64,000 nt of DNA, taken from Streptomyces sp. NBC_01142. GTDB taxonomy: Bacteria; Actinomycetota; Actinomycetes; Streptomycetales; Streptomycetaceae. The stretch is from NCBI RefSeq assembly GCF_026341125.1, contig NZ_JAPEOR010000003.1:992001-1056000 (forward strand), in the 5' to 3' direction. How positions within the stretch are numbered: the stretch's first letter is position 1; every line of letters begins with the position of its first letter. The notes beneath the pieces are model-generated. The model saw nothing but the letters and a program-made list of their open reading frames with translations, was not told the DNA's origin and made no database searches. The position numbers and the translations under genes are program-made. Below, one piece after another: positions 6,034 to 16,309 of the stretch.

Positions 6034-7283
6034 CCCTCCACCTCTCCGAGGATCTTGGTGTGATGACAGTCCTGCTGCCGGGGCCAGCCCTCGGGGTCGG
6101 CGAGATAGCTGTCCATCAGCTTGCGGGCATCCTTCGAGAACTTGGTCCGCTGAGCCTCGCTGAGCGTGGGTCCGCTGAATTGGGATGTCTCCATGTGAAC
6201 GGTGACACGGTGGTACGTGCTGCCCGCGGCGCACTCCGCACCAGCCCACAGGGCGAGTTCGGCCGGCTCCGACTCGGGGATGACCTTCGTCCTCGTCCCC
6301 TCGCGGAAGGTGAAGCTGTCACCGGTGTAGTGGTACTTGCCGTTGGCGGACTCGCTGAGCGGCCCCGCCCAACTCGCCGCCGAGACATTGACGACCGCAC
6401 CGTCCGGTGGTGTCGGCTCGGTGTACGTCGGGTCCTTGCGGTCCAGGATGGTGGCGTGGCAGACGCTCAGCAGCCGTGAGTCCTGCAGATCTCCGCTGGC
6501 GGTCCACTTGCCGGGGAAGCCCGCGCGCTTGCCGAGCCCACGGCACTTCTTCACGCCCAGGCCCGGCTCGTCGATCCTGACGACCCTCATGTTGCCCCCG
6601 TCCGCGTCCTGGGTGACGTGGGCCTCATAGGTGTCGATGACCCGCGTGGGCATCTTCAGCGGGGTGCCGCCGCATTTCTGCGCCGCGGTGATCCCGTTGG
6701 CGACCTGCACGGCGGTACGGAAGTCGGCGAGGTGCTCGGCCCGCTCACCCTCGCCGGGAACGGGCAGATCGACATCTGCGGTGACATACATCCCGGACAC
6801 CTCGCGGACCCGGCCCTCGAGCCCGCCGGGGCACTCGGCGACGACCCACGTCCGCCCGTCCTCGCCGACCCTGCCGGTGACGCCGGGCGCCTCGTACCCC
6901 TCGGAGTCACCGCCGGGCAGGATGTCCTCGGCCCGCACCGTCATCGGCAGCGGGGATATGAGCGCGACGGCCCGCACCTGCACCGACCCGTGCCCCGGCC
7001 AGGTGACGGAGCAGTTCACCAGGGAGCGGCTGTCCTTATCGGGCTCGAGCATGGTGCCGTACTGGCTCACCTCGCCGGCAATGTCATCGGGCACGAGGCC
7101 CCGCAGCTCCTTGTACGGCAGCAGCCCTGCACAGGCACGCTTCAACTGCACCTGATTCGCCGCCGAATGGCCACTACCGTCAGAATTGCCGGTACTGAAG
7201 AAGAACACCGCACCGGTGACGAACAATACGAGCGACAGCCCTGTCATCAGCGGCTTGCGCAACCATGACGGCACCCGGCCCAC
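6024..7283 (-). CDS. Membrane-anchored conserved hypothetical protein
   Basis: The 419-residue product has one N-terminal membrane segment (residues about 12-30, LMTGLSLVLFVTGAVFFF) and a large outside domain with about eight cysteines (ACAGLL, NCSV, ECPGG, KCGG, KCRGLG, VCHA, ECAAG, DCHH). It is the first gene of a two-gene unit; its TGA at 6024-6026 lies inside the start region of the next gene. The pair resembles lipoprotein-like or membrane-anchored proteins often found next to each other in Streptomyces. Function is unknown, and no catalytic motif was seen. Confidence 0.8.
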   Translation of the reverse strand: MGRVPSWLRKPLMTGLSLVLFVTGAVFFFSTGNSDGSGHSAANQVQLKRACAGLLPYKELRGLVPDDIAGEVSQYGTMLEPDKDSRSLVNCSVTWPGHGSVQVRAVALISPLPMTVRAEDILPGGDSEGYEAPGVTGRVGEDGRTWVVAECPGGLEGRVREVSGMYVTADVDLPVPGEGERAEHLADFRTAVQVANGITAAQKCGGTPLKMPTRVIDTYEAHVTQDADGGNMRVVRIDEPGLGVKKCRGLGKRAGFPGKWTASGDLQDSRLLSVCHATILDRKDPTYTEPTPPDGAVVNVSAASWAGPLSESANGKYHYTGDSFTFREGTRTKVIPESEPAELALWAGAECAAGSTYHRVTVHMETSQFSGPTLSEAQRTKFSKDARKLMDSYLADPEGWPRQQDCHHTKILGEVEGWQ

Positions 7284-7487
7284 CGAGTTCCCTCCCCAGT
7301 ACTACCGGCAGATCACGTCACCACCGGCGGATCAAGGCCTGGAACCTATCAGAGCCGTAGCTCCCTGCATTTCGCAGATCGAACGGGCCTGTTTTCCTCG
7401 ATCTTGGTTGCACTTCCATCTGGCGGCCGGATCTTCGTGGGGGTGGGGCGGCCGGCCACTCCAGTAACGGACGGCAGCCAACTGATT

Positions 7488-7512
7488 GACCGCCCGGCAC
7501 CCCCGGGCGGTC
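7488..7512 (-). terminator. Rho-independent-type hairpin
   Basis: GACCGCCCGG and CCCGGGCGGTC form a ten-base perfect stem around a short loop. It lies downstream of the minus-strand DUF3592 gene and upstream of the 7283 start, so it can end the former without entering the latter. There is no T-run, as is usual in this GC class. The remainder of 7284-7719 shows no supportable gene. Confidence 0.6.
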
Positions 7513-7719
7513 CACCCTGCGACTGGCTCGACCATCCCGTCCCAGGAGCGTAAGGCCAATTGAAACGCGAAGTCACAACAACAAAGGTGACTGGGCGCCC
7601 CAGTTGGTTGTGGCCGCTTGTCCGTGATGGATACGACTGCCGAACCCGCGTTCTGAGCACGGCCACACCCACTTCGGTGGACGGCGAGCGGCCGAACCAA
7701 GCCTTTCGCGAAGCAGAGC

Positions 7720-8235
7720 CTAGGGTTCGGTAGTCCAGCTCTGCTCCGGACTGGTGCCGTCGTCATCGACCGACGAGTCCATGAATACGGCCAGACCGAA
7801 GCCCAGCGCGGCGAAGAAGAGCCCTATACATGTGAAGACCACCAGCACTGCGCCGGTCAGATACGACATGACCCCGAGCCCGGGCGGCGCAGCGGCTGGT
7901 ACCGCCTGCTCGGGGCGATGCGGCAGATATCGCACGGGCACGATGTCCCCCACCACATAGAGCTGGTCCGAGGCGACCTGGGCCCGCACATCCCGTCCGT
8001 CGGACGTCCGGAACCCGAGGATCTGACGCCGCTGGCTGTGCCCGTGCCCGTTCGAGGAACGGTGCATCACGAACGTCTCCAGACAGCGAGCCTCGGCGAC
8101 CAGTCCCTCCCGCAAAGTCCGCTTGTACGCCGAGGTCCTCCGCACCATCCAGATGAGCATCCCGATCCCGAAGGCAGCAAACAGCAACCCGAACGCCCCG
8201 AACACAAAACCGAACGCCCCACCCACAGCAGACAT
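7720..8235 (-). CDS. DUF3592-type membrane protein
   Basis: The 171-residue product has an N-terminal membrane segment (GFVFGAFGLLFAAFGIGMLIWMV), a soluble middle domain (about 40-115: EARCLETFVMHR...ILGFRTSDGRDVRAQVASDQLYVVGDIVPVRYLP), and two closely spaced C-terminal membrane segments. The helix-domain-helix order and the P-V-R-Y box are those of DUF3592. The start at ATG 8235 is chosen because a G-rich site (aggggggatacggg) precedes it. The role is unknown; members are small integral membrane proteins. Confidence 0.75.
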   Translation of the reverse strand: MSAVGGAFGFVFGAFGLLFAAFGIGMLIWMVRRTSAYKRTLREGLVAEARCLETFVMHRSSNGHGHSQRRQILGFRTSDGRDVRAQVASDQLYVVGDIVPVRYLPHRPEQAVPAAAPPGLGVMSYLTGAVLVVFTCIGLFFAALGFGLAVFMDSSVDDDGTSPEQSWTTEP

Positions 8236-8900
8236 CCCGTATCCCCCCTGATGGACCGGCCCCAGATCTCTCCACGCTGGGCCGACGACGTCCGTGACGA
8301 TACCCAGCAGGGGGCCAGCGGTTCCCATTCCCCATGGCCAGAGGTGGCGAACGGGCCTTGCTTTCGTGCCCGGACCTGGATCCTGATCCGGCCGTAGCCG
8401 TCACGGAAGAGCGGACACAACCCGCCAGTTCGGTCTCGCCGACGACGGCCCGGCGCGGTGGGCTGAGCAATGCCGGCTGTTCGGTGAGGCGGGCATGGCG
8501 GACCGTTCAAGCGTGCACCGTGTGCTGACCCCGCTTCGGCCTGGCCCGCCTCGCCCACTGCACATCAGTCAACGGCGCCCTGAGAAGCCGTTGTTGTACC
8601 GAACGGCTCGCTCGGCCCTCGCGAAGGGCAGGTTCTCTGCCGGCTGCGCCAGAGCCTGCCGGCGGAGTTCCACGATCGGCTGTGCTGTCGGGTGCGACAG
8701 CTTGAGGACCGATCAGCGGAGGCCGACAGCTGCCGTGATGACCGACTCGCAGACCGTGCGCTCCACTTCCCCTGTTGGTGCCCGGGTGGCGCTCCGACCG
8801 GGGGCACCTGGCAGATCAGGGTCAGGAGCGATATGCTCCCCGCGATGATGACTCATTCTGTTGGCAGATTGGGGGTCCCATCCGCGCAAGGTGAGTGCTG
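8236..8900. other. Intergenic region with a possible IS5-type transposase relic
   Basis: No intact gene is supported in these 665 bases. On the plus strand at about 8560-8800, short translated pieces (SLRTDQRRPTAAVMTDSQTVRS) recall the R-P-T-A-A-V-x-D-S-Q-T-V-R block just before the first catalytic Asp of IS5-type transposases, but frames are broken and the match is short. The right end must carry the promoter of the 8901 operon. A site aaggtgag at 8888-8894 serves as its ribosome-binding site. Confidence 0.3.
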
Positions 8901-10298
8901 ATGCTCACTCAGACCGCGAATGAGGATTCCCGCCTTTCCTTCTGGCTGCGCGTGCGTGAGTTCGCCGTGCCGCCTTCCATGATCGAGACTGCGACTGCCC
9001 GCCGTTGTGCCGGGGACTGGGCAGGGGCGTGCTCCGCCGCAGGCATCGATGTCGATCTCAACCTGCGTGCCGTGGCGCGCACTCATGGCCGCGACCTCGC
9101 AGCCCAAGTCCGGGCCGACCTCCGCCATCTGGCTCCTGACCTGTTGCGCTGGCACATGCCGAGGATCGCTCCTGAGGGGCTGCTGCGCCCAGGTCTGACC
9201 ATCGCTCTGGCTCGGTACGACGCTGCGGGGCATGAGGGCGCATACCCGGTGCACCTCATGGTCCGGACTCCGCCGGCCTGGGCGGACGGCGGTCAGCGGA
9301 TCAGCCTCACCCTGTGGAACGGATCCCACTTCGAGACCGGCGCCTGTCGGCATCCGCATCCCCAACCCGACCGGCGGTTCCGCCTCGACCTGCACCGCCA
9401 CCTGTGGGACGCGCGCAGGACCGATGAGCTGCGGGTCCGGTCCGGGGCCGATCGGCTGCCCGCCGACGGCCGTCCAGTGAACCCGGATCTGCTGGGGATG
9501 GTGCCGCAGGGGCGCAGCTGTGCCGTTGACCGGTGGGCGGCCGAGGCGGCGATTCTGCTCCACGCCGAGGGGCGGACGACCCGTACCGTCACGGTGCGGC
9601 TCGGGGCCCGGCACCGGCTGGTCCTGGACCTGGTCGCGGACAGAGACTGCGACGGACCGCCCGCTGTGCGGATCGCCTCGGCGCCCACGGACGGCAGCGC
9701 CTCCGCACTGCCGGTCCTGCCCGACGCGGCGACCTGGGTGCTACCCGACCTGGAACTGATCCGCACCGGTTCGATCGAGGTCGATCGGCTGCACCCGCTG
9801 GTCGCCTCGGCACTGGTACCGGATCATTCGCCGACCGGTTCCTCCCGGATTCCGGACCGGACAGGACAACCGCGCCTCGTGGAATGCCGGGGAGCCCAGC
9901 ACCGCATCGGCCTGGTCAACGGGGTACTGACGCCTCTGGACCACGATCCGGCCGAGATCCGTCGGGAGGAACTGCTGGTCGCACTGACCGGTCATCCGCT
10001 TCCCTGCCTCCAGGCCATCGATGAGGCACACCGTCATCCGGACTGCCTCGTCGGCGTCCGCGAACGCCTGGACCACGGCGACACCGCCGGCGCGCTGGCC
10101 GTCGTCGAGGGCCTGCTGGGTCCCGACGCGATGCTGCGCACAGGCGCTCTGCGGGACGAACTGGAGACGGCCGTGCTGCGGCGGATCACCTACGGACTGT
10201 TCAGGGCAGGCCTGGCCGGCCCCGGACCCGACCGTATCCCTCCAGGCCTCCGCCGCCCCCGTGACCACCGCTCGCACCCGCGCCACGCGACCCGCTGA
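8901..10298 (+). CDS. Conserved protein of unknown function, first gene of MoxR/VWA operon
   Basis: The 465-residue product has no signal peptide or membrane segment and no family I can name. It is rich in Arg, Leu and His, with a predicted mixed fold: a helical N-terminus (about 1-95), a beta-rich middle (about 100-300, for example ISLTLWNGSHFETG and TVTVRLGARHRLVLDLVADRD) and a helical C-terminus (about 330-450). ATG 8901 is preferred over the GTG at 8895 because aaggtgag lies seven bases upstream of the ATG and only one upstream of the GTG. It is 60 bases ahead of the MoxR ATPase gene, which overlaps the VWA gene, so it is most likely the partner or substrate-recognition subunit of that machine. 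Confidence 0.8.
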   Translation: MLTQTANEDSRLSFWLRVREFAVPPSMIETATARRCAGDWAGACSAAGIDVDLNLRAVARTHGRDLAAQVRADLRHLAPDLLRWHMPRIAPEGLLRPGLTIALARYDAAGHEGAYPVHLMVRTPPAWADGGQRISLTLWNGSHFETGACRHPHPQPDRRFRLDLHRHLWDARRTDELRVRSGADRLPADGRPVNPDLLGMVPQGRSCAVDRWAAEAAILLHAEGRTTRTVTVRLGARHRLVLDLVADRDCDGPPAVRIASAPTDGSASALPVLPDAATWVLPDLELIRTGSIEVDRLHPLVASALVPDHSPTGSSRIPDRTGQPRLVECRGAQHRIGLVNGVLTPLDHDPAEIRREELLVALTGHPLPCLQAIDEAHRHPDCLVGVRERLDHGDTAGALAVVEGLLGPDAMLRTGALRDELETAVLRRITYGLFRAGLAGPGPDRIPPGLRRPRDHRSHPRHATR

Positions 10299-10358
10299 CC
10301 CGGGGACCTCCGTCCCCCGCACCCACTCGGCCCACCACGAACCCATAGGTGATCGAGC

Positions 10359-11621
10359 ATGCCCACATACACCCCGTTCGCTGCAACCGGCACCCTCTCC
10401 GAACCAGCCCACGCCTCCCAGCTCGACGTCGCCGGCGAGTTGCTGGCCCTGCTGCGCGACGCAACCACTGAACCGCGCCCCGACACACAACTGGAGGCCC
10501 TGACTCTGGCGGTGGCCGCCGACCTGCCCGTGCTTCTGTGGGGTGAGCCGGGGATCGGCAAGACCGCGGCCCTGACACAGCTTGCCGCGGCCCTGGACCT
10601 TCCCCTGACCACAGTGATCGCCAGCGTGCACGAGCCGTCCGACTTCTCTGGGCTGCCCATAGTCGGAGACGATCCCGCGGAACAAGGTGTCCCGATGGCC
10701 CCGCCGGACTGGGCGGTGCGACTGGTGCGGTCCGGCCGGGGGCTGTTGTTCCTGGATGAGCTGTCCACCGCGGCACCAGCCGTTCAAGCCGCCCTGCTCC
10801 GCCTCGTGCTCGAGCGGCGGATCGGCGCCCTGCAATTGCCGCCCGGGATCCGGATCGTGGCTGCCGCCAATCCGCGATCCTCGGCGGCCGACGGCTGGGA
10901 GCTGAGCCCGCCTCTGGCCAACCGGTTCGTTCATCTTCAGTGGACCCACGACCACGAGGTCGTGGTACGCGGCCTCGGTGGGACTTGGCCCCGGGCAACA
11001 CTTCCGCGGCTCGACCCGGAGGGGTTGTCAGAGGCCGTGGACTTCGCCCGCCGTGCGGTGTGCGGGCTCCTCTCCGCCCGCCCCGGGCTCGTGCACCGGC
11101 TGCCCAGCAACGAAACTCGCCGGGGCGGCCCCTGGCCGTCACCCCGAAGCTGGGAGATGACACTGTGTCTGATTGCCTTCGCGTCCGCGGCCGGTTCCTC
11201 CCGGGAAGTCCTTTCCTTGCTGGTCAGGGGCACAGTGGGGGACGGTCCGGGGCTGGAGCTGCTGGCAAGCCTGGACCGGATGGACCTCCCGGACCCCGAG
11301 GTGCTCCTCGCCGACCCGGCGGGTGCCGCCCTGCCCGAGCGGGGGGATCTACGCCAAGCAGTGCTTGACGGTGTGGTGGACGCGGTCCGTAAGCGCCCGG
11401 AGAAGTCCCGCTGGGACGCGGCGTGGGCGCTCCTGGCCCGGGCGGTGGAGACCGGAGCCCCGGACCTGGTGGTCGTTCCCGCGACCACACTCGCCGCGCT
11501 GCGCAACGAGGACTGGGACGTTCCGGAATCGATCGAGCGGCTCGCCGGAGCGGTGTCCCTGTCCCGGCGAGCAGACCACGCGGCGGCCCGGGCCGCGGTC
11601 GCCGCGAAGGCCGGCCGATGA
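10359..11621 (+). CDS. MoxR-family AAA+ ATPase
   Basis: The 420-residue product carries the full AAA+ set: Walker A G-E-P-G-I-G-K-T (62-69), the MoxR-type H-E-P-S-D-F-S-G-L-P loop (91-100), Walker B F-L-D-E (131-134) and sensor Asn171 (AAANPRS). MoxR ATPases work as hexameric remodelling chaperones that act with VWA-domain partners. Here the partner gene follows with an ATGA overlap (11618-11621), so the two are translationally coupled. Ribosome-binding site aggtgatcg precedes ATG 10359. It acts in the cytoplasm; its client is unknown. Confidence 0.93.
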   Translation: MPTYTPFAATGTLSEPAHASQLDVAGELLALLRDATTEPRPDTQLEALTLAVAADLPVLLWGEPGIGKTAALTQLAAALDLPLTTVIASVHEPSDFSGLPIVGDDPAEQGVPMAPPDWAVRLVRSGRGLLFLDELSTAAPAVQAALLRLVLERRIGALQLPPGIRIVAAANPRSSAADGWELSPPLANRFVHLQWTHDHEVVVRGLGGTWPRATLPRLDPEGLSEAVDFARRAVCGLLSARPGLVHRLPSNETRRGGPWPSPRSWEMTLCLIAFASAAGSSREVLSLLVRGTVGDGPGLELLASLDRMDLPDPEVLLADPAGAALPERGDLRQAVLDGVVDAVRKRPEKSRWDAAWALLARAVETGAPDLVVVPATTLAALRNEDWDVPESIERLAGAVSLSRRADHAAARAAVAAKAGR

Positions 11622-12877
11622 TCCCGGGCGCACCCGGAACTCTGGACCTCGACAAGCTCTTCGCTGCCCGACTGCACGCCGCTCGGGTCCGGCCCTACTT
11701 GGCGACGGCGCTGTTCGCCCTGCACGTCGTGGAGTCGCGGCGGGTCCCGACGATGGCCGTCGACCGGAACTGGCGGTGCTACGTCTCGCCGGGGTTCGTG
11801 GACCGGACGCCGGTGGAGGACCTTGCCGGGGTGTGGGTGCACGAGTTGTCGCACCTCCTTCGCGACCATCACGGGCGCAGTGACCGGGTCGCGCGGGAAC
11901 GCGGGCTGGTAGGCCCGGGGGAACGGCTGCGCATGAACATCGCCGCAGACTGCGAGATCAACGACGACGCGTTCGGTGACGGGTTGGTCCGGCCTGAAGG
12001 CGCTGTCAATCCGGGGTCTTTGGGGCTGCCCGAGGGGGAGCTCATGGAGGACTACCTGCGCCAGTTCCGCCTCGGGCCGCATACACAGAGCTTGGCCTGG
12101 CTGGACTGCGGCAGTGGCGCCGACGGACTGGAACGGGAGTGGGACCTGGGACCGGACGGCGCGCACGGCCTCAGCGCGCAGGAACGGGACGCGGTTCGGT
12201 TCCGGGTGGCGCAGGGCATCACCGCCCGTCCGGGGAACGCCCCGAAGGGGTGGCAGCGGTGGGCGGAGGAGGCGTTCCACCCGCCGCAGCCGTGGCGGGA
12301 GTTGCTGAGAGCGGCGGTCCGCTCGGCAGCCTCCGGCCCCGGCGCAGGCGAGGACTACACCTACGGCCGGCCGTCGCGTCGCTCGGCCGGGGTGCCCGGC
12401 GTTGTTCTGCCGAGCCTGCGGCGCAGGCCGCCTCGGGTCGCCGTCGTCATCGACACATCCGGGTCAGTCAGTGACGCCGAACTGGGCAGCGCACTCCTCG
12501 AGGTTGCCGCGATCTCCCGTGCCGTGGGCGGCCGTCGTGACCTGATCACCGTGCTCTCGTGCGACGCGGCGGCCCGGTTCGTGCACCCGCTGTGCCGTGC
12601 GGAGGGAATTCCGCTGGTAGGCGGTGGGGGTACGGATCTACGCACGGGCTTCGCAAAGGCGCTCCGGGCGCGGCCCCGACCAGACGTCATCGTGGTCCTG
12701 ACCGACGGGCAGACGCCCTGGCCGGGCACGCGACCACCGTGCCGGACGGTGGTGGGTCTGTTTCCCCGGCAGCAGGCATCCCGGTCATGGGACGAGGACG
12801 ATCCCGATTACGTACCGGACTCGCCGCCCGAGTGGGCACGAGTGGTGGTCATCGGCTCGGCTCCCGCTGCTCGGTGA
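11618..12877 (+). CDS. DUF2201-type zinc-peptidase-like/VWA protein, partner of MoxR
   Basis: The 419-residue product has two parts. The N-terminal half carries a zinc-peptidase helix H-E-L-S-H (75-79, WVHELSHLLRDH) followed by a D-C-E-I-N-D motif (111-116) that may supply a further metal ligand. The C-terminal part is a von Willebrand A domain with a complete MIDAS: D-T-S-G-S (279-283), the threonine of G-G-G-T-D (337-340) and the late Asp of L-T-D-G (361-364). This pairing is the DUF2201 'putative metallopeptidase plus VWA-like' architecture. Its ATG overlaps the stop of the MoxR gene. Proteolytic activity is inference from the HExxH only. Confidence 0.9.
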   Translation: MIPGAPGTLDLDKLFAARLHAARVRPYLATALFALHVVESRRVPTMAVDRNWRCYVSPGFVDRTPVEDLAGVWVHELSHLLRDHHGRSDRVARERGLVGPGERLRMNIAADCEINDDAFGDGLVRPEGAVNPGSLGLPEGELMEDYLRQFRLGPHTQSLAWLDCGSGADGLEREWDLGPDGAHGLSAQERDAVRFRVAQGITARPGNAPKGWQRWAEEAFHPPQPWRELLRAAVRSAASGPGAGEDYTYGRPSRRSAGVPGVVLPSLRRRPPRVAVVIDTSGSVSDAELGSALLEVAAISRAVGGRRDLITVLSCDAAARFVHPLCRAEGIPLVGGGGTDLRTGFAKALRARPRPDVIVVLTDGQTPWPGTRPPCRTVVGLFPRQQASRSWDEDDPDYVPDSPPEWARVVVIGSAPAAR

Positions 12878-13246
12878 GCCCCCTCAGGAGGGCGCGGAAG
12901 AATCCCTGCCGACGTGTCACTGAGCAGCCAGTCGGGTTCACGATGTAACGGAGCATCATCGACGCGCAGTCGGTGAAGGCGGCCGCGTCGGTGCCTGCCG
13001 CGACCAGGGCTTCGACGCGGGCAAGCGCGGGCAAGCGCGGGTAGGCGGGGGCAAGCGCGGGCAAGAAGGCCGTCCGCCGTCCGCTCGCCAGTGGTCGGCC
13101 AGGGTGTCCATGGTCCGTCCGTAGTCCGGTGCCGGCGCCGGCACCGGCACCGGCACCGCAGCGTCGAGTCCCTCCCGCCAGATGATCCGAACGAACGGCC
13201 CAAGCGGGTCTGGCAACGGGGGCTGGTAGGCGTGGTGCGCGGCCAC
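12849..13246 (-). pseudogene. Possible frameshifted small gene spanning short repeats
   Basis: On the minus strand, one frame from 13246 reads MAAHHAYQPPLPDPLGPFVR...YGRTMDTLADHWRADGG. After a run of imperfect ten-base repeats (gcgggcaagc, about 13017-13066) another frame reads ARVEALVAAGTDAAAFTDCASMMLRYIVNPTGC and on to a stop at 12849-12851. Both halves look protein-like and together would give about 130 residues. A second short repeat (ggcacc units, about 13138-13158) encodes a Pro-Val run in the first half. No family recognised. It overlaps the end of the VWA gene by about 29 bases on the other strand. Slippage at the repeats could be the cause of the frame change. Confidence 0.3.
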
Positions 13247-14304: not shown

Positions 14305-14337
14305 CGTAGTGCGATGTCCGGAAGGAAGGTGAGTCCG

Positions 14338-15213
14338 ATGGAGCGGCCCCTGGTCGTGGGCGTGGACGGCTCCGAACCGAGCCTGCGGGCCGTGGACTGG
14401 GCGGCCGATGAGGCCGGTCTGCGCGGAGCCCCCCTACGCCTGGTGAACGCCTCGCTGTGGGAGCGATACGAAGGCGCGGCGCTCGCCGACGATCTGGGTG
14501 AGCCGTCGGAGCGCGTGCTCGCCGAGCAGATCGTCGCCTCGGCCGCGGAACGCGCCGGCCGCCGCAACCCGGATCTGAGTATTTCCACCGACATTCTGCC
14601 CGAGGAGGCGGTGACCGCCCTCCTGCACGAGGGCGGCAGCGCCTCCGCGCTGGTGATCGGCTCACGCGGTCGCGGCGGAATCTCCGAGCTGCTTGTCGGC
14701 TCGGTCAGCCTTGCCGTCGCCGCGCGCGCCGACTGCCCGGTGATCGTGCTGCGCGGCAGCCATGAGAACCGGCCCGGCCGCGGAATCCATCAGCGCATCG
14801 TCCTCGGCGTCGACGAACCGCCGGAAGGATCGGCCGCCGTACGCTTCGCCTTCCACGCGGCAGAGGTGCGGCATGCCGAACTGCACGCCGTACGGGCCTG
14901 GCGCCGCCACGAGCCCACCGACCACCCTCTGCTCGTGGGGGAGTCTGCCCGCTCCTACGAGAACCGGGCAGTGGAGACCGTGGACAAGGCGCTGCGCGAG
15001 GCCGTGGCGGAGCATCCGTCTGTCGAGTTGCACCGCCGAACCGTCGAAGGTTCCGCCCGCAAGGTCCTGATGGACGCCTCGACCACCGCCGATCTGCTGG
15101 TCGTCGGCGCTCAGCGACGCCACGGGCACATCGGGCTTCAGCTCGGCCGGGTCGCCCACGCGGTGCTGCACCGTGCCGTCTGCCCGGTGGCCGTCGTGCC
15201 GCAGCGGGCGTAA
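14338..15213 (+). CDS. Universal stress protein, two UspA domains
   Basis: The 291-residue product is two UspA domains in tandem (about 1-140 and 150-291). The first has the complete ATP-binding signature G-2x-G-9x-G-S (GSRGRGGISELLVGS). The second has G-x-x-R-9x-G-R, so nucleotide binding there is doubtful. The start is ATG 14338, preceded by ggaagg at 14321-14327. An in-frame ATG at 14314 has no such site. In actinobacteria these proteins are cytoplasmic and tied to dormancy, hypoxia and redox stress. The tail-to-tail neighbour is a polyphosphate kinase 2, and a second USP of the same build lies beyond it. Confidence 0.92.
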   Translation: MERPLVVGVDGSEPSLRAVDWAADEAGLRGAPLRLVNASLWERYEGAALADDLGEPSERVLAEQIVASAAERAGRRNPDLSISTDILPEEAVTALLHEGGSASALVIGSRGRGGISELLVGSVSLAVAARADCPVIVLRGSHENRPGRGIHQRIVLGVDEPPEGSAAVRFAFHAAEVRHAELHAVRAWRRHEPTDHPLLVGESARSYENRAVETVDKALREAVAEHPSVELHRRTVEGSARKVLMDASTTADLLVVGAQRRHGHIGLQLGRVAHAVLHRAVCPVAVVPQRA

Positions 15214-15230: not shown

Positions 15231-16049
15231 TCACTCCGTCAGACCGGCTGCGTGGTCGGGGACGTACGTCTGCAGATCACGGGGCGGGCGGACATAGCCG
15301 GTGGACGGCGGTCTCGCCGGAAGTTCGAGCACCCTCGGCGGCACCTCGTGGTACGGAACGGAGCCGAGCAGATGGGCCATCATGTTGAGCCGTGCCCGGC
15401 GCTTGTCGTCACTCTCCACGACGTACCACGGAGCCTGCGCGATGTCCGTGTGCACCAGCATCGTGTCCTTGGCCCGCGAGTAGGCCTCCCACCGGGTGAT
15501 CGACTCGAGGTCCATCGGCGACAGCTTCCAGCGTCGTGTCGGGTCCTGGAGCCGGCGAAGGAACCGCTGCTCCTGCACGGCGTCGCTCACCGAGAACCAG
15601 TACTTGCGCAGCAGGACCCCGTCCTCGACCAGCATCCGCTCGAAGATGGGGCACTGATGCAGGAACCGCTGGTGCTCCTCCTTCGTGCAGAAGCCCATCA
15701 CATGCTCGACACCGGCGCGGTTGTACCAGCTCCGGTCGAACAGGACGATCTCTCCCGCGGCCGGCAGCTGCTCGACGTACCGCTGGAAGTACCACTGGGT
15801 GCGCTCGCGCTCCGTGGGCTTGGGCAGGGCCACGGTCCGCGCGACGCGCGGGTTGAGGTGTTCCGCGACCCGTTTGACGGTGCCGCCCTTGCCGGCTGCG
15901 TCCCGGCCCTCGAACACCACCACCAGCCGGGCACTCTCCGACCTCACCCACTCCTGGAGCTTCACCAGCTCCGTCTGCAGCCTCAGCAGCTCCCGCTTGT
16001 ACACGCCACGAGGAAGCGTCGCCACCGGCCGCTCCTTCTTGCCGGCCAT
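15231..16049 (-). CDS. ppk2: Polyphosphate kinase 2 (single-domain)
   Basis: The 272-residue product has a P-loop Walker A G-R-D-A-A-G-K-G (48-55), the PPK2 lid-region Arg/Glu cluster (KPTERERTQWYFQRY) and Walker B L-F-D-R-S-W-Y-N-R-A-G (about 103-113). PPK2 enzymes move phosphate between polyphosphate and nucleotides (NDP to NTP, or NMP to NDP). It is one-domain length. ATG 16049 is chosen because ggggagg lies just upstream; an in-frame ATG at 16073 lacks one. It is flanked by two universal stress genes, which suggests a role in energy storage under stress. Confidence 0.93.
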   Translation of the reverse strand: MAGKKERPVATLPRGVYKRELLRLQTELVKLQEWVRSESARLVVVFEGRDAAGKGGTVKRVAEHLNPRVARTVALPKPTERERTQWYFQRYVEQLPAAGEIVLFDRSWYNRAGVEHVMGFCTKEEHQRFLHQCPIFERMLVEDGVLLRKYWFSVSDAVQEQRFLRRLQDPTRRWKLSPMDLESITRWEAYSRAKDTMLVHTDIAQAPWYVVESDDKRRARLNMMAHLLGSVPYHEVPPRVLELPARPPSTGYVRPPRDLQTYVPDHAAGLTE

Positions 16050-16309
16050 GCCGCCTCCCCAGGTCGATGACATCACGGAGTCACTGGTGCCCGAGGCCAA
16101 GGACCAGGACAGCGCAGCGCAGTACGGACGAAACCGACCGTACTGACCGACGGGGAACTGCGCACCCTGGACGCCCGCCGGCAGCTGCCGGCTCTGGCCG
16201 AGCCGACGCCACAGGCCAAGGGCAGGTGGACCGCGCCCGGCAGCGCCCTGCGGTGGAACCGTCCGAAGTGACGCCCCAGAGTGGGGTGTGTCCGGAAGGC
16301 GGTGACACC

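Follow-up and report, generated by a model that had tools for sequence, protein, structure and literature searches.

A conserved actinomycete gene trio of a MoxR-type ATPase, a DUF2201 protein with a VWA domain and a partner carrying a C-H-H-E-C module

The trio locus

The stretch analysed here (the window) comprises 64,000 nucleotides of the soil actinomycete Streptomyces sp. NBC_01142 (assembly GCF_026341125.1, contig NZ_JAPEOR010000003.1, positions 992,001 to 1,056,000 of the forward strand). It contains three genes in a row, the last two joined by an ATGA overlap, as a first-pass annotation made from the sequence alone had rightly described. These encode a partner protein without a family name (gene 1), a MoxR-type AAA+ ATPase (gene 2) and a DUF2201 protein (gene 3). 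The trio is conserved as a unit, and gene 1 carries a module that recurs in distant relatives, both beside the same machine and in scattered genes. The features are as follows.

8901-10298, + strand: gene 1 (g1), partner protein without a family name, 465 residues (open reading frame, homologues, position 5' of the pair)
9861-10055, + strand: C-H-H-E-C module of gene 1, residues 321-385 (alignments A2 and A4; profile match to distant third proteins)
10359-11621, + strand: gene 2 (g2), MoxR-type AAA+ ATPase, 420 residues (Pfam AAA_5; NorQ sequence match)
10542-10565, + strand: Walker A motif GEPGIGKT of gene 2 (sequence; kept in 75 rows)
10743-10760, + strand: Walker B motif LLFLDE of gene 2 (sequence; kept in 75 rows)
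11618-11621, + strand: ATGA start/stop overlap of genes 2 and 3 (sequence)
11618-12877, + strand: gene 3 (g3), DUF2201 protein with a metallopeptidase-like N-terminal domain and a VWA domain, 419 residues (Pfam PF13203 and PF09967)
11840-11854, + strand: HELSH (HExxH), gene 3 residues 75-79 (H75, E76 and H79 invariant in 81 of 81 rows)
11942-11968, + strand: AADCEINDD, gene 3 residues 109-117, likely a helix with the third metal ligand (conserved; ligand role putative)
12452-12466, + strand: DTSGS of the metal ion-dependent adhesion site (MIDAS), gene 3 residues 279-283 (D279, S and S283 invariant in A3)
12632-12634, + strand: MIDAS Thr339 of gene 3 (invariant in A3)
12704-12706, + strand: MIDAS Asp363 of gene 3 (invariant in A3)

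Gene 1 starts at ATG 8901 (an in-frame GTG is also present at 8895), and the methionine of this start is kept in at least 95% of 73 close-homologue rows. That gene 1 is a chance open reading frame is ruled out by the conserved start, by 2936 homologues among the 8000 candidates scored in the protein database, and by a third-position bias, codon differences being commonest there in the three gene-1 pairs computed. The 4-base overlap of genes 2 and 3 was found in 60 of 75 loci with the start codons as chosen here. In three loci (L043, L070, L078) gaps of 464-623 suggested an extra gene between them; the stretch reads as a low-complexity N-terminal extension of gene 3.

Gene 2 matches AAA_5 (E 9.9e-10). 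Its score against AAA_3 was 24.6 bits (E 2.5e-5), below the family cut-off of 27; in another search it was 26.8 bits, or 28.4 with the frame neighbours, near that cut-off. After eukaryotic midasins its best sequence match in the PDB is NorQ (9qh4, E 3.7e-7). Both Walker motifs are conserved in the alignment, from which rows shorter than 380 residues were dropped, and the annotation of gene 2 as a MoxR AAA+ ATPase with its motifs is borne out.

Gene 3 matches DUF2201_N (PF13203) at E 4.1e-25, with 89.4 bits against a cut-off of 23.2, and the VWA-like DUF2201 family (PF09967) at E 6.3e-15. The PF13203 match and the HExxH motif place it among the putative DUF2201 metallopeptidases. Its VWA domain has a complete MIDAS (DxSxS-T-D), and it adjoins a MoxR/AAA_5-type ATPase carrying both Walker motifs, which makes genes 2 and 3 a candidate MoxR-VWA remodelling pair. 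In A3, an alignment of 37 DUF2201 rows, the gene 3 sequence is 82-92% identical across families. The annotated HExxH and MIDAS are thus both confirmed, with residues invariant in close homologues. A metal-sensing role had also been supposed; nothing in our analysis supports it, the MIDAS being an adhesion site.

Conservation of the trio

Genome contigs were scanned with gene 3, and the best 80 of 325 loci were used. These come from Streptomyces, Peterkaempfera, Micromonospora, Plantactinospora, Nonomuraea, Acrocarpospora, Sinosporangium, Nocardia, Amycolatopsis, Saccharothrix, Kibdelosporangium and others. Gene 1 was matched upstream of the pair in 75 of the 80, and in the remaining five the contig starts only within gene 2 or gene 3. 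One of the 75 (L014) has gene 1 reduced to a C-terminal remnant and gene 2 frame-split. Beyond the trio no neighbour cluster recurs in more than 15 of the 80 loci, so the unit is the trio and not a larger conserved operon.

A survey of 150 genomes of the same genus found gene 1 in 82 and gene 3 in 92. Gene 1 lay on the same strand, at most 6 kb upstream, for 84 of 93 gene-3 matches of at least 350 residues. Six of the nine misses end at contig ends (G335, G388, G426, G418, G322, G408); in G307 an intact gene 1 lies about 38 kb off on the opposite strand, G363 has a paralogue with a truncated gene 2, and G342 a distant gene-3 copy of 42% identity. Several genomes without gene 1 (e.g. G300, G334, G386, G407, G433) hold gene-3 fragments only, which points to joint decay. 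A single genome (G375) has a gene-1-type match without gene 3. In a phylum-wide survey of 296 genomes gene 1 was found in 9, gene 3 in 16 and PF13203 in 22, and all nine gene-1 genomes also have gene 3. Among 74 plasmid records with gene 3, the nine that have gene 1 are those with the closest gene 3. The genes of the trio are present and lost together in a fixed order, and the view of gene 1 as the dedicated partner in a conserved trio stands.

Fifteen of the 150 genomes carry paralogous loci with 51-56% gene-3 identity. In the one that was read, L125 (G182, 9144-12272, minus strand), gene 1 of the paralogous trio is extended by ankyrin repeats. A viral origin was considered and rejected: six IMG/VR stretches held no gene-1 relative and one gene-3 locus.

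A module shared with distant third proteins

No family from Pfam, NCBIfam or PADLOC matches gene 1 above cut-off, in agreement with the first-pass annotation. The only Pfam match of gene 1 up to E 1 is DUF7311 (E 0.011, 16.7 bits against a cut-off of 27), and a PDB sequence search gave nothing useful for gene 1 or gene 3. Gene 1 contains a module of about 60 residues in which C329, H334, H348, E356 and C369 are invariant in A2 (71 rows) and A4 (18 rows). A2 consists of 65 of 72 full-length locus sequences, five database proteins and gene 1 of the window; the short rows L014, L020 and L069 and the five loci without upstream sequence were left out of the gene-1 conservation count. No Pfam model matches the module above cut-off in any of the 18 members (best E 0.03).

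The same module is found where gene 1 is not. G146, G021 and G006, which belong to two other families of the phylum, lack gene 1 upstream of the pair; their gene directly 3' of gene 3 shares the region of gene 1 residues about 321-385, and G006 has three such genes in tandem. Comparison of whole-alignment profiles of gene 1 and these distant third proteins gave a probability of 70% (P 4e-5), and hhalign of the module sub-alignments 90% (P 1.7e-6) with a score of 39.7, whereas none of 60 column-shuffled controls scored above 21.3. A circular permutation, with the rest of the distant proteins corresponding to the N-terminal part of gene 1, gave no signal (P 0.49). When the 296 genomes were searched with the A4 profile, strong matches (E <1e-5) occurred in 12, all of them genomes with gene 3; here strong module matches are found only with the machine. 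A protein-database profile search with the distant third proteins gave four sequences; the number does not tell how rare such proteins are, as scoring covered 8000 word-sharing candidates.

Sub-lineages of the machine and their partners

On a tree of the 37 DUF2201 rows, the clade with the LLRDH motif separates from canonical pairs (support 99/99) and splits into the gene-1 lineage (100/100), the lineage with the module downstream (98/92) and a plasmid lineage (99/100). Partners are exchanged between these sub-lineages. All four plasmids read, from Rhodococcus, Mycolicibacterium, Cellulosimicrobium and Mycobacterium (L183, L184, L185, L228), carry a conserved five-gene unit without the module, made up of MoxR, DUF2201, a protein of about 60-70 residues, one of about 390-400 residues and a second ATPase; in the two units scanned the second ATPase matches AAA_30 and the 390-400 residue protein has no Pfam family. 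The five-gene unit looks like a plasmid-borne system, to which we assign no role. The first-pass expectation that few MoxR/DUF2201 pairs would lack gene 1 accordingly holds within the gene-1 lineage and fails across all pairs, given the canonical pairs and the Rhodococcus-type operons.

Two other arrangements were seen. The genome of the window has a second, canonical MoxR/DUF2201 pair of the HEMLHAALRHG type without the module (L171, G000:C1:3346000-3362000, about 6348-9283) and another PF13203 match at G000:C1:2642495. On the Deinococcota plasmid pMESIL01 of Allomeiothermus silvanus (L224, 4776-8360) an LRV/HEAT-repeat protein stands ahead of a DUF2201/MoxR pair.

The active site differs between the sub-lineages. 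The gene-1 lineage has HExxH and the downstream-module lineage HHxGH in three of three loci; a Nonomuraea relative (a record filed as plasmid, 11.85 Mb) has HQVTH. The metal-site histidines of gene 3 thus outlast the catalytic glutamate. Since HHxGH occurs in a module-bearing sister lineage, peptidase chemistry is not what ties machine and module, and on motif grounds proteolysis is excluded as the common function and possible in the gene-1 lineage.

A proposed remodelling function

To our knowledge, MoxR-VWA machines are common and clients are known for few of them. The trio is probably a dedicated remodelling system, with gene 1 as a client or adaptor that the MoxR-VWA machine recognises via the module. 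By analogy with NorQD, gene 2 is proposed to power the remodelling of gene 1 by gene 3. Gene 2 would form a MoxR-type AAA+ ring, on which gene 3 would dock through its VWA domain, as its family suggests and as NorD does on NorQ. Gene 1 would be held through its C-H-H-E-C module, probably by the gene-3 MIDAS, and ATP hydrolysis by gene 2 would move the VWA domain so that gene 1 is presented to, or opened at, the N-terminal metal-binding part of gene 3. In the gene-1 lineage this domain, with its full HExxH, may cut or trim the client; the activity common to the lineages would be remodelling of module-bearing proteins rather than proteolysis. That the proteins form a complex, where they dock and what becomes of the client are predicted here from analogy.

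Several observations weigh against this proposal. The bootstrap of the DUF2201 tree had not settled and long branches were flagged, and in the Rhodococcus-type plasmid operons the machine occurs with different partner genes. Residue D349, invariant in all 18 A4 rows, falls below 95% in 73 gene-1 rows, so it was omitted from the module signature. Among the downstream copies, a profile made from gene 1 alone matched three proteins, at E 2.6e-4, 0.0058 per domain and, more weakly, 0.037, and the other two copies of L120 were not listed. Nine of the 12 module genomes are the gene-1 genomes, which are closely related, so that the association of module and machine rests on few independent lineages. 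Two genomes with this gene-3 type (G194 and, by similarity, G108) have no module match in their fragmented assemblies, and weak partial matches in G032, G226 and G249 (E 0.002-0.009) were taken as chance. Module matches number 10 in G021, 7 in G006 and 2 in G146, and 14 of these 19 lie away from the machine; client, adaptor and unrelated use are not distinguishable. Finally, AlphaFold2 models built from alignments of close relatives were poor for gene 1 (mean pLDDT, the predicted local distance difference test, 56.8) and gene 3 (43.1), so that fold and residue clustering are not readable from them; a Foldseek search with the model of gene 1 found nothing at E <= 0.001, which is uninformative at this pLDDT.

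Its presence in many scattered proteins of distant relatives suggests that the module may mark what the machine acts on. Some dispersed module genes have unremarkable neighbours, among them uvrA and the pair DNA polymerase III delta/lepA. In a Pfam scan of ten of the 14 dispersed proteins, seven had no match, one had a sub-cut-off match and two ended in DUF2087 (E 1.6e-23 and 3e-21). Many of the dispersed single genes with the module (L211-L222; G021, G006, G146) share a C-terminal part that includes a W-rich, VVDGxFVL-like stretch. A bolder and speculative reading, which we rate as doubtful, takes the module for a novel domain, serving as metal site or for docking, that marks clients, including putative regulators of the DUF2087 type, for one MoxR-VWA motor. 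The zincin-like domain of gene 3 would have shifted between a peptidase form (HExxH) and a form that handles metal without being a peptidase (HHxGH), and a single line of machines would load metal into, or activate, a dispersed regulon of module proteins.

Alternative explanations

The first-pass annotation had suggested an ATP-gated protease acting on or through gene 1. In such a protease gene 2 would feed gene 1 to the gene-3 HExxH site, which would cleave it, in the gene-1 lineage. Loss of the HExxH in close homologues had been named as grounds for abandoning the idea; the motif is kept in all 81, together with the AADxEIN helix, Pfam calls DUF2201_N a putative metallopeptidase, and peptidolytic processing has been proposed for a jumbo-phage pair (PMC7824862). 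As a general mechanism the suggestion fails on the glutamate changes, to histidine in the three module-bearing sister loci and to glutamine in the Nonomuraea relative, and neither a cleavage site nor a conserved tail was identified; even within the gene-1 lineage we consider it possible but rather unlikely.

A metal-insertion chaperone is an unlikely alternative by our estimate. Here the gene-3 metallo-domain would hold an ion, which the MoxR-VWA motor would deliver to the C-H-H-E-C sites of gene 1 and of the dispersed proteins. The invariance of five ligand-type residues across gene 1 and its distant relatives is consistent with such a chaperone, as are the persistence of the gene-3 site histidines where the glutamate is lost, the match of gene 2 to NorQ and the insertion of iron by NorQD through remodelling (PMC13036017). 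However, conservation of C, H and E can be structural or redox in nature, and DUF2087 in two dispersed proteins suggests regulators rather than metalloenzymes. The gene-1 model does not show whether the residues cluster.

Effectors in conflict systems usually diverge fast; the slow evolution of gene 3, the absence of a PADLOC family, of recurrent neighbours in the 80 loci and of a Pfam effector domain in gene 1 make it improbable that the trio is a conflict (anti-phage) ternary system, in which gene 1 would sense or carry an effector and be armed by the pair. Such a system would fit the occurrence in 82 (gene 1) and 92 (gene 3) of the 150 genomes with decayed remnants, the location on large plasmids, the partner exchange and the dispersed copies of one module, which recall effector-associated domains (PMC7159879).

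If the trio is a remodelling system, the likely client encoded next door and the module in dispersed proteins make the client question directly testable. Because HExxH has naturally become HHxGH in some machines of module genomes, comparing the two forms can tell proteolysis apart from remodelling without it.

Neighbouring features

Just 3' of the trio (window 13016-13065) a 10-base unit, CGCGGGCAAG, is repeated five times in tandem. A universal stress protein gene (14314-15213, + strand) and a polyphosphate kinase 2 gene (about 15231-16100, - strand) lie nearby; neither is a conserved neighbour of the trio.

Comparison with known systems

We found no functional study of a DUF2201/MoxR trio, and no earlier account of the C-H-H-E-C module or the trio, in the open-licence literature; the module is described here as new.

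The vWA-MoxR ternary systems come in VMAP, iSTAND, FtsH and beta-propeller kinds (PMC7159879). Like the trio they combine MoxR, vWA and one conserved third protein, are widespread in multicellular actinobacteria, and have a shared module in dispersed genes. Unlike them, the trio has a gene 3 of the DUF2201 type without C-terminal effectors, and its partners vary between lineages. Their defining third components were not found: Pfam gave no VMAP-C or related domain in gene 1; Pfam and NCBIfam gave no P-loop family in gene 1 for the iSTAND/FtsH kinds, although an inactive, highly divergent STAND could escape profile search; and for the beta-propeller kind gene 3 has no propeller and gene 2 scores 17.8 bits against bpMoxR (cut-off 27). 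PADLOC gave weak AAA+ matches for gene 2 and none for genes 1 and 3. In the defining features tested, the trio does not match the published ternary conflict systems to which it had been likened.

Canonical MoxR/DUF2201 pairs such as L171 share with the trio an AAA+ ATPase and a DUF2201 protein with HExxH and MIDAS. They differ in having HExLHAALRHG in place of the trio's HExxHLLRDHH, in lying off the LLRDH clade on the tree and in lacking the module.

NorQ and NorD resemble the trio in having a MoxR-type ATPase, to which gene 2 is matched by sequence, a VWA partner with an extra N-terminal domain and a separate client (PMC13036017). In NorQD a finger of the VWA domain reaches into the pore of the ATPase; the VWA domain is rotated at the expense of ATP, which remodels the client and inserts iron (PMC13036017). 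The available part of that description names no HExxH domain in NorD, unlike gene 3, and the client also differs.

In jumbo phages MoxR beside a metallopeptidase-vWA protein has already been described by Iyer et al. 2021 (PMC7824862), who propose a role in virion assembly. As in the trio, MoxR adjoins a vWA protein with an N-terminal metallopeptidase domain; unlike the trio, no third partner is named in the accessible part of the description. The best phage matches found are 23-29% identical. The pairing of MoxR with a metallopeptidase-vWA protein is thus itself in print for jumbo phages, and the trio with its module adds a variant to it.

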